DNA from: Spirochaetota bacterium
GTDB lineage: Bacteria; Spirochaetota; UBA4802; UB4802
Direction: 5' to 3'
Assembly: GCA_040756435.1 (NCBI GenBank)
Contig: JBFLZD010000035.1
Location: 1-39,512 of the forward strand
DNA: 39,512 nt
The notes below the pieces were generated by a model. That model was given only the letters and a program-made list of their open reading frames with translations. It was not told the DNA's origin and made no database searches. The translations under genes and the position numbers were made by a program. Shown here piece after piece: positions 8,003 to 24,095 of the stretch; positions within the stretch are counted from its first letter, which is position 1, and every line of letters begins with the position of its first letter.

Positions 8003-8583
8003 CGTAAAGCAGGCATACCTCCCCATTGCAGTAAATAATCCTCTGCCTTTTTATTCATAGTATCTTTTTGGTCAATTATCACTGATGGCTGTTGGCCCAG
8101 TAAAGAAAGCGGTGAATCGGATTCCAACAATTGTGCAAATAGGGGTTTTGCAGTATTTTTATCCATTTGTATCAATTCTTGTAACATAAATGGCCATAGC
8201 TCATAAATCCAGATTCTACCTGCAAGTGATTCACGAATGTTTTTTAATAAAAGAATTTGACTTGAGCCCAGTAGTAGAGAAAAATTAATTGATTGTTCAT
8301 CAAAACAATATTTAATTTTTTCAAATACTTCAGGTGCTTTTTGGACTTCATCAAGAATAGCTGTGCCAATATCCAGTGGCCAATTGGTAGTAGCAATTTT
8401 TTTTACCCGTAAGCGGATTTCTGGTGAATCAAAGTTGATATACTGTAGATGGGGGTAAGCCTTTTTGGCAAGGGTAGTTTTTCCTGTTTGACGTGCGCCG
8501 GTGATCAATACCAGTTTTCTTTCTGTATCGTGTGGAAGAATTGTGCTTAAACTTCTATGAATATACTGTAAATTTTCGCTCAT
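7897..8583 (-). pseudogene. 3'-truncated AAA ATPase (DUF4143-type family)
   Basis: Read from ATG 8583, the product has Walker A G-A-R-Q-T-G-K-T-T (residues 29-37), Walker B A-I-L-D-E-V-Q-K (75-82) and the sensor-like L-L-L-G-S-S-Q segment of the ATP-binding proteins that usually carry a C-terminal DUF4143 and total about 380-400 residues. Family-like sequence ends at W-G-G-M-P-A-L-R, encoded down to about 8002, where the stop codon of the convergent 1335-residue gene lies. The last 35 or so codons are antisense to that gene and have no family character. The C-terminal domain is therefore missing. An upstream in-frame ATG at 8619 would overlap the predicted -35 box, so 8583 is preferred. Such ATPases are often mobile and lineage-specific; this one is probably a decaying remnant. 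Confidence 0.75.
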
Positions 8584-8587
8584 AAGC

Positions 8588-8619
8588 GTAAAATTTACAG
8601 TATATTTTACGAATGTCAA
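8588..8619 (-). promoter_or_regulatory. Predicted promoter with overlapping inverted repeat, truncated ATPase gene
   Basis: On the minus strand TTGACA (8619-8614) is followed after 16 bases by TAAATT (8597-8592), ending only 8 bases before ATG 8583, which leaves essentially no leader. An inverted repeat GTAAAAT (8588-8594) / ATTTTAC (8604-8610) covers the -10 and the start region and could be an operator. The promoter strength call is uncertain because the -10 matches only 4 of 6. Confidence 0.4.
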
Positions 8620-22099: not shown

Positions 22100-22463
22100 A
22101 ATTTAGTCTACTTGTCCTCTTAAAAGAGAGTGTAATATTAATTCAAGGGAATATCTATATTAATGTAAAAATAATTACCTATATTACTTATTAATATTCG
22201 ACTATATTAAGTATTATTTAATTAATAATTTTTCTTGTAATTTTATTTAAAATGTTAACCAGGTGATATTTTCTATTAAACTTTATATACATTTATTTCA
22301 ATAACAAATAAAAAACCGACCAGCATGTTTTTCAAAAAAATATATTGTAATAAAAAAGTCAACATATTTTCATTATTTTTTAGCAAAAATAATGAATAAA
22401 AAAGAGAAACGATTTTCAATGTAGCAAAATAAAAACTTTACTACCTAAAACCAAATTTTTTCC
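22100..22463. other. AT-rich divergent intergenic region
   Basis: This gap separates the minus-strand envelope operon from dinB and must carry the promoter for the operon, but I see no box pair I trust. It contains a perfect AT-rich inverted repeat at 22369-22396, listed separately. No open frame with coding character. Confidence 0.5.
22369..22396. other. Perfect AT-rich stem-loop
   Basis: Arms TTCATTATTTTT (22369-22380) and AAAAATAATGAA (22385-22396) are perfectly complementary around the four-base loop TAGC. It lies between two divergent genes, so no terminator is expected here. It could be a protein-binding site or a structure in a long 5' leader of the minus operon. Confidence 0.55.
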
Positions 22464-22492
22464 TTGACAGATATACTATATAAAAGTATAGT
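22464..22492 (+). promoter_or_regulatory. dinB promoter, consensus-like, predicted leaderless
   Basis: TTGACA (22464-22469), a 17-base spacer and TATAGT (22487-22492) make a near-consensus sigma-70 type promoter. The expected start, 7 bases past the -10, is the A of the ATG itself (22499). There is no ribosome-binding site before this ATG; the preceding bases belong to the promoter palindrome. The message is therefore predicted to be leaderless. Confidence 0.75.
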
Positions 22493-22498
22493 ATATCT
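22469..22498 (+). promoter_or_regulatory. Perfect palindromic operator candidate in the dinB promoter
   Basis: AGATATACTATA (22469-22480) and TATAGTATATCT (22487-22498) are exact reverse complements separated by TAAAAG. The palindrome runs from the last base of the -35 box across the spacer and -10 to the base before the ATG. A dimeric repressor here would block RNA polymerase. As dinB is commonly SOS-controlled, a LexA-type repressor is the obvious candidate, but the sequence is not the E. coli (CTG-N10-CAG) or Bacillus (GAAC-N4-GTTC) box. Confidence 0.65.
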
Positions 22499-23680
22499 AT
22501 GAGTCAGAGAATTATATTCCATGTAGATATGGATGCCTTTTTTACTTCGGTTGAGCAGGTGGATAATCCTTCGCTTAAAGGTAAACCTGTAGTAGTTGGG
22601 GCTAATCCTAAAGAAGGCAGGGGCCGCGGTGTAGTTTCAGCTGCAAGCTATGAGGCACGTAGGTTTGGCATTCATTCAGGTATGCCTATCTCTAAAGCAT
22701 ATAAACTATGCCCGGGGGCTATCTTTTTGCCCCCACGGTTTGACCGCTACGTTGAACTATCGCACACCATTATGAAAATTTTTGAACAGTATTCACCATG
22801 TATTGAGCAGATAAGCATTGATGAAGCATTTTTGGATTGTACGGGGACACTGAAGCTATTTGGAAGCGTGGAAACTATTGCCCATAATATTAAACGTGAT
22901 GTTTTTACACAAACGGGGCTTACCTGTAGCATTGGAATTGCAACAAATAAGTTAGTGGCTAAAATTGCATCGGATTTGCAAAAGCCTGATGGGCTTACCA
23001 TGTGCCCGCCGGGAATGGAAAAAGAATTTTTAGCACCACTGAGCATTTCAAAATTATATGGTGTTGGCACAAAAACACAGAAGTACCTGGAGTCATTGGG
23101 ATTCAAAACCATTGGTGATATTCAGCGTGCTAGTGAAAACTATTTGCAAAGCCTTCTTGGCAAATGGGGTGCAGTGTTACATCAGTTTGCATTAGGTATT
23201 GATAATCGCCCCGTTGAGCCATACTCTCAGGCAAAGTCGGTGAGTGAAGAAACAACCTTTGATGTTGATACTGATGATGAGGATGGTATAGTTTCTACGC
23301 TGACTGAGCTTTGTGATCGTGTAATACGAAGGGTTAGAGCCGCTGAATTTTCTTTCAAAACAGTAACATTAAAAATACGATTGGAAGGTTTTGAAACATA
23401 CACACGCAGTAAAACATTACAGCAGCATGCCCGTGATATGGCAATACTGCAAAAGGAGATTCTGCGGTTATACATTTCATTTGGAAGGGGTAAAAGAAAA
23501 GTACGGCTTTTAGGTGTCAGGGTTTCAAATTTGCTTTGTAACGCTGATGTGCAGATGAACCTTTTTGAGAACCAACAAAAGGTTGAAAAAATTGAGGAAG
23601 TTATTGATAGTATTCATAACAGGGGGCTTACTGTGCTGCGAGCTTCGGTAATAAAGCCACCAAAAAGAGGAAAGGGGTAA
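22499..23680 (+). CDS. dinB: DNA polymerase IV (Y-family)
   Basis: A 393-residue error-prone translesion polymerase. It has the N-terminal H-V-D-M-D-A-F-F (catalytic Asp10), Y-E-A-R-R-F-G-I, the second catalytic motif S-I-D-E-A-F (Asp108, Glu109), then C-S-I-G-I-A-T-N-K and K-P-D-G-L of the palm. A helix-hairpin-helix L-Y-G-V-G-T-K-T follows near residue 188, and then the little-finger domain. Q-M-N-L-F (352-356) fits the QxxLF sliding-clamp binding motif, placed within the last 45 residues as in other Pol IV. The start at 22499 matches the family's usual N-terminus exactly. The downstream gene begins 2 bases after the stop and should be co-expressed. Confidence 0.97.
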   Translation: MSQRIIFHVDMDAFFTSVEQVDNPSLKGKPVVVGANPKEGRGRGVVSAASYEARRFGIHSGMPISKAYKLCPGAIFLPPRFDRYVELSHTIMKIFEQYSPCIEQISIDEAFLDCTGTLKLFGSVETIAHNIKRDVFTQTGLTCSIGIATNKLVAKIASDLQKPDGLTMCPPGMEKEFLAPLSISKLYGVGTKTQKYLESLGFKTIGDIQRASENYLQSLLGKWGAVLHQFALGIDNRPVEPYSQAKSVSEETTFDVDTDDEDGIVSTLTELCDRVIRRVRAAEFSFKTVTLKIRLEGFETYTRSKTLQQHARDMAILQKEILRLYISFGRGKRKVRLLGVRVSNLLCNADVQMNLFENQQKVEKIEEVIDSIHNRGLTVLRASVIKPPKRGKG

Positions 23681-23681
23681 T

Positions 23682-24095
23682 ATGGCTCAACGTTTGTATG
23701 AGTATGTACAAAATATGGTTGCACAGTGGGGTGTGGATAATCCTTTTTTTGGCGATAGTAACCAGGGACAGCTGGTTGAGCAATGGACTACTGATTTAGA
23801 GGGGCTTGAGATATTCTATTCGTATGTACGTAACAGCAGGTGGGTTACTATCACCGTATTGCCTACAAAGACAGGCATACGTCCTGAAAAAGAAGTATAT
23901 CGGTGGAAAGGGTATATAAATGAATACATTGCTGAAACGGCAGTGTGGTGGGCATTTGAACTGTTAACAGAGAGCGAAGCACGGAAATTTATGATACAAC
24001 ATAAACCAAAAGTTGTATTTTCATTTATACGATTAGGCCATCCCTATGAATTGATTGTAAAATTTAACGGGTATTGTTGGGTTGTTGAAGATTGA
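23682..24095 (+). CDS. Hypothetical protein coupled to dinB
   Basis: A 137-residue soluble protein that I do not recognise. It has no signal peptide or transmembrane segment. It is rich in aromatic residues, with Trp/Tyr clusters (W-V-T-I-T-V-L-P, A-V-W-W-A-F-E-L-L) and an alternating beta/helix look; the end is N-G-Y-C-W-V-V-E-D. The start codon lies 2 bases after the dinB stop and the purine-rich end of dinB (GAGGAAAGGGG) supplies its ribosome-binding site, so the two are almost certainly translated from one message. By context it could be an accessory of the DNA-damage response, but nothing in the sequence proves that. Confidence 0.75.
   Translation: MAQRLYEYVQNMVAQWGVDNPFFGDSNQGQLVEQWTTDLEGLEIFYSYVRNSRWVTITVLPTKTGIRPEKEVYRWKGYINEYIAETAVWWAFELLTESEARKFMIQHKPKVVFSFIRLGHPYELIVKFNGYCWVVED

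Follow-up and report, generated by a model that had tools for sequence, protein, structure and literature searches.

The window analyzed here is a 39,512-nt stretch of DNA from an uncultured Spirochaetota bacterium, and it carries dinB downstream of a promoter that is overlapped by an inverted repeat. The features of the locus are as follows.

Positions 22464-22469, plus strand: the -35 hexamer TTGACA, identified from the sequence and by promoter scan and kept in 5/5 genomes of the genus.
Positions 22469-22498, no strand: a perfect inverted repeat with 12-bp arms and a 6-bp spacer, AGATATACTATA-TAAAAG-TATAGTATATCT.
Positions 22474-22493, no strand: the proposed LexA operator, ranked top by models trained on other families.
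Positions 22487-22492, plus strand: the -10 hexamer TATAGT, within the right half of the proposed operator.
Positions 22499-22501, plus strand: the ATG of dinB, at which transcription is predicted to begin, 7 nt downstream of the -10, a distance kept in the genus, f3, and f7.
Positions 22499-23680, plus strand: dinB, encoding DNA polymerase IV, 393 aa (Pfam IMS and IMS_C; NCBIfam NF002677, above cut-off).
Positions 23682-24095, plus strand: a 137-aa open reading frame of unknown function, separated from dinB by a 1-nt gap.

The dinB frame offers no alternative usable start, as the next in-frame ATG would lose the conserved N-terminal FHVD, and the protein is 91% identical to its counterpart in a metagenome-assembled genome named Spirochaetota bacterium (JARYLT010000003.1), the nearest named relatives being metagenome assemblies. 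The 137-aa open reading frame follows dinB in 4/5 genomes of the genus and has no match in Pfam or NCBIfam; it is probably co-transcribed with dinB and is a candidate for an SOS co-regulated protein.

Ahead of dinB, TTGACA is followed by 17 nt, TATAGT, and a further 6 nt before the ATG at 22499, and this promoter, with 11 of 12 hexamer bases, is the only sigma-70-like promoter that the scan found on the plus strand in 22100-22560. The first-pass annotation had described both the promoter and a perfect palindrome with 12-bp arms and a 6-base spacer, and both are exact in the sequence. It had also placed the spacer, the -10, and the start under the palindrome, which is correct for the first two but not for the start, as the repeat begins at the final base of the -35, runs through the spacer, -10, and discriminator, and stops one base short of the ATG. 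When the window was dinucleotide-shuffled, repeats of this kind (12-bp arms, spacer of up to 12 nt) turned up at a mean of 0.23 per shuffle; shuffling the 300-nt upstream region produced one in 27 of 3000 trials, and comparable repeats are found at ~12 distinct loci in a 400-kb sample of the same genome. By itself the dinB palindrome is unremarkable; it is set apart by where it lies and by how well its core is conserved, and the case made here rests on these two properties because palindromes of this size are not rare in the genome. When sequences from four sister species were compared, the six outer pairs of the repeat were only partly kept (4 in G003, 3 in G004, and 2 each in G002 and G001), and the full 12-bp-arm palindrome was rejected as the binding unit, given that just two to four of these pairs survive. 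Since the outer arms diverge, the operator is to be sought in the inner part of the repeat, and on this comparison the functional unit is the inner ~16 to 20 bp. The core of the proposed operator is CTATATAAAAGTATAG at 22476-22491, and the operator overlaps the promoter, covering the -10 and some of the spacer. Another 12-bp-arm inverted repeat, TTCATTATTTTT-TAGC-AAAAATAATGAA, lies at 22369-22396, ~100 nt upstream of the dinB promoter.

The first-pass annotation had further noted that dinB lacks a ribosome-binding site, and indeed there is no Shine-Dalgarno-like tetramer between -20 and -4. With the -10 placed ~6 to 7 nt before the start codon, dinB thus has the layout of a leaderless mRNA. 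The arrangement TTGACA-N17-TATAGT-N6/7-ATG recurs in 5/5 members of the genus, and among 25 dinB promoters, 11 from three families have 28 to 30 nt between the end of TTGACA and the start and lack a Shine-Dalgarno tetramer, where the start codons of relatives are those we chose as consistent with the conserved N-terminus. This distance class comprises f1, f3, and two f7 genomes. Within the genome itself, an exact TTGACA lies 28 to 30 nt before the start in only 2 of 229 genes, dinB included, the common distance being 45 to 64 nt. Shine-Dalgarno starts are the norm in this genome, with a tetramer ahead of 133 of 224 starts versus 27 when a control window is used. A pattern search for the leaderless layout returned 34 places versus 12 in a reversed control, and 5 of 20 that were examined open a frame of more than 200 aa; from these counts, leaderless genes are present here but form a minority. 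Other families keep the box described below yet add a leader, and leaderlessness therefore varies between lineages.

Elsewhere in the window, an inverted repeat with 17-bp arms and a 13-nt spacer (AATATACTGTAAATTTT ... AAAATTTACAGTATATT, 8560-8606) lies across the start codon of an ATPase-like gene (minus strand, starting at 8583, with a GARQTGKTT motif) that has TTGACA ~30 nt before its ATG. Two more ATPase-like genes have the leaderless layout (L253 at G000:C8:49442 and L257 at G000:C11:51250, with GPRQSGKTT and GPRQSGKST, respectively), so that leaderless starts may be typical of the gene family in this genome.

The source assembly, of 3.6 Mb in 126 contigs, of which the window is C35, encodes LexA (201 aa, G000:C4:90673-91275; TIGR00498, 202 bits against a cut-off of 111; PF01726, E 6e-21) as well as RecA, DinB, and a UmuDC pair. 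The LexA sequence carries an AAG cleavage site and the GDSM and LK catalytic motifs, and the protein combines the helix-turn-helix and self-cleaving domain of a canonical LexA. Its recognition region, ITVKGAYDH(L/V/I)KAIEKKG (ITVKGAYDHLKAIEKKG), hardly varies among families f1, f2, f3, f5, and f7, which is in line with one box serving all five; the LexA of f6 is divergent.

To characterize such a box, promoters of lexA, dinB, and recA were gathered from this genome and from relatives of the same order (39 genomes searched), together with umuD regions from the genus; the genome itself was covered by genome-wide searches and the 400-kb sample, and 440 kb were scanned in the motif runs. The dinB-derived consensus ACTATAY-N4-RTATAGT, allowing up to two mismatches, is not enriched genome-wide (117 sites versus 204 in the control), so that sequence alone defines no regulon, and trained models were adopted for this reason. 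An initial unseeded, unmasked run settled on a register that included the -35, and TTGACA was masked in the rerun. Unseeded discovery on both strands of the masked lexA promoters of f2 to f7 only then yielded TAGCATACATCAGTATAG, whose best site in 440 kb of the genome's own DNA is 22474-22491, within the dinB palindrome (14.6 bits). With the same motif, the lexA promoter of this genome reaches 18.2 bits, and the umuD box was unscorable in this run because masking took out part of it. The unseeded run matters because the seed of a palindromic model, built on lexA and recA promoters of other families, was picked after all promoters had been viewed. With that seeded model, umuD scores 17.5, dinB 16.1, lexA 12.5, and recA 9.8 bits, scores that are reached by 0, 0, 1, and 5 of 201 control promoters from the same genome, respectively. 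A further model, R2, trained on lexA, recA, and dinB sites of other families only, gives two matches genome-wide at E<=10 (the best 150 of 3671 candidates were scored), and these are the umuDC and dinB promoters. The R2 E-values of 0.3 and 2.5 are modest because the site is short, and short models overall gave 0.3 to 3; the argument is one of rank and gene identity rather than E-value, as both R2 matches are promoters of Y-family polymerases. Because the box overlaps the -10 and is rich in A and T, its conservation is in part that of the promoter. From these sites we infer that the LexA box is CTAWAC-N4-GTWTAG. The check proposed in the first-pass annotation, whether the repeat recurs ahead of lexA, recA, or other repair genes, comes out positive for the core box, which dinB shares with the umuDC and lexA promoters and weakly with recA, but not for the exact palindrome, whose 24 arm bases have no second match in the genome with up to three mismatches.

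The second-best site in the 440-kb sample precedes a YoaA/DinG-type helicase gene (L202 13215, minus strand, G000:C7). This gene is not counted as a confirmed target, because G000 is the only genome with the full box and G001 has it in part. In 5/5 genomes of the genus it has a TATAG-like -10 just before the ATG and no Shine-Dalgarno sequence, and its start looks leaderless in all five.

Across the order, the position of the box is fixed relative to the promoter and not to the start codon. The dinB core ACTATAtaaaagTATAGT or a close variant is present in 5/5 members of the genus, and the box is in register at dinB in f1, f2, f4, and f5, whatever the length of the leader; in f2, f4, and f5, where sites such as CTATATATTTGTATAG or CTATATATATGTTAAG are found, leader lengths vary and some include a Shine-Dalgarno sequence. 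The dinB promoters of f3 and f7 have a weak box or one located upstream of the -35. The recA promoters of many families carry the box, in most families 150 to 206 nt upstream of the start (recA loci L162-L191), which suggests a long leader on the recA mRNA in most of them, and the recA site is weak in the genus of the window. A recA site closer to the gene, at -37, scores no better than controls and was not retained. The lexA promoters of f7 (e.g., L113) apparently carry two adjacent boxes, ATAAACTAATGTATGC and CTTATTTTATGTTTAG, and this suggests paired LexA dimers.

Taken as a whole, we consider it probable that a LexA operator lies over the dinB promoter, that its repression is relieved by DNA damage, and that the resulting dinB mRNA is leaderless. 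In the undamaged cell, a LexA dimer on CTATATAAAAGTATAG, within the proposed operator at 22474-22493, would cover the spacer and the -10 and exclude RNA polymerase. Upon DNA damage, RecA filaments would prompt the self-cleavage of LexA and the site would be freed, transcription would begin at the A of the dinB ATG, and ribosomes would engage the leaderless mRNA without a Shine-Dalgarno sequence. The identity of LexA as the binder, the induction of dinB by damage, the 5' end at the ATG, and the mode of ribosome engagement are all inferred from sequence.

Several alternatives to this mechanism can be weighed against the same data. The LexA operator might be real and dinB transcription might start slightly upstream, producing a leader of a few to ~15 nt that lacks a Shine-Dalgarno sequence. 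Longer leaders do occur under the same box in f2, f4, and f5 (distance 32 to 62, some with a Shine-Dalgarno sequence), and promoter spacing predicts a start only to within 1 to 2 nt. However, TTGACA-17-TATAGT puts the start ~7 nt after the -10, which is the ATG, this spacing is kept in 5/5 genus members, in f3, and in two f7 genomes, and no other plus-strand promoter lies in 22100-22560, and we therefore regard a short leader as unlikely. It is more doubtful still that the site belongs to another dimeric repressor, distinct from LexA, that controls both Y-family polymerases. The best sites in the genus are those of dinB and umuD, with recA weak, as such a regulator would have it, but the motif learned from the lexA promoters of other families still ranks dinB first, recA promoters in many families have the box, autorepression is common for LexA, and conservation of the box goes together with that of the LexA recognition region. 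As for the possibility that the inverted repeat has no regulatory function and arose by chance in an AT-rich -10 region, the presence of other 12-bp-arm repeats in the genome and the lack of conservation of the outer arms in sister species are what would be expected, yet the conservation of the inner 16 to 20 bp across families and its standing as the top site of independently trained models make this scarcely credible.

The favored reading, a LexA operator over a leaderless dinB promoter, can be set beside known systems. The E. coli LexA box has the consensus CTG-N10-CAG, which the dinB core, CTA-N10-TAG, does not match, and the Bacillus consensus GAAC-N4-GTTC is absent from 22464-22501, as is the Leptospira box TTTG-N5-CAAA. 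The proposal in the first-pass annotation of a repressor site distinct from all three, combined with leaderless translation, is supported by the sequence comparisons presented here. In Leptospira interrogans, the LexA1 box is TTTG-N5-CAAA and the LexA2 box TTGTA-N10-TACAA, LexA regulates recA, recN, dinP, and lexA, and the dinP site is the degenerate TTCGaaattGAAA (PMC3789691). Leptospira is thus likewise a case of a spirochaete LexA acting on SOS genes, but with a different box; its recA box, TTTGCTATACAAA, includes CTATAC, possibly by coincidence. A total of 17 distinct LexA-box motifs have been counted (PMC8565304). The system described here resembles other lineage-specific LexA/SOS regulons in having a canonical LexA and a palindromic operator at dinB, umuDC, and lexA, whereas CTAWAC-N4-GTWTAG is unlike GTTC-N7-GTTC, TTAC-N3-GTAA, GGTT-N10-AACC, and the CTAA-N5-TTAG of Bacteroidetes, which belongs to a non-canonical LexA. 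The lexA gene of Mycobacterium tuberculosis is leaderless, with transcription starting at the start codon (PMC2897130), and offers a precedent for a leaderless SOS gene; here the gene is dinB, the start is predicted, and the proposed operator and the leaderless promoter overlap. L. interrogans commonly has leaderless mRNAs (PMC5243855), whereas Shine-Dalgarno starts are the rule in the genome studied here. Neither CTAWAC-N4-GTWTAG nor a leaderless dinB under LexA was found reported in a search confined largely to open literature, and the novelty of both is therefore provisional.

More broadly, we lean toward the view that a whole order of Spirochaetota uses CTAWAC-N4-GTWTAG as a previously undescribed LexA box and that dinB has stayed leaderless under it in several lineages, so that damage-induced polymerase IV would be made independently of Shine-Dalgarno sequences while most other genes use them. 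LexA boxes differ markedly from one bacterial group to the next, and every additional box helps to trace how repressor and site change together; with a recognition region that scarcely varies and a box present in six families of a single order, a clean comparative set is available for this purpose. A leaderless SOS polymerase also makes it testable whether Shine-Dalgarno-independent translation favors damage-response genes when normal initiation is compromised.
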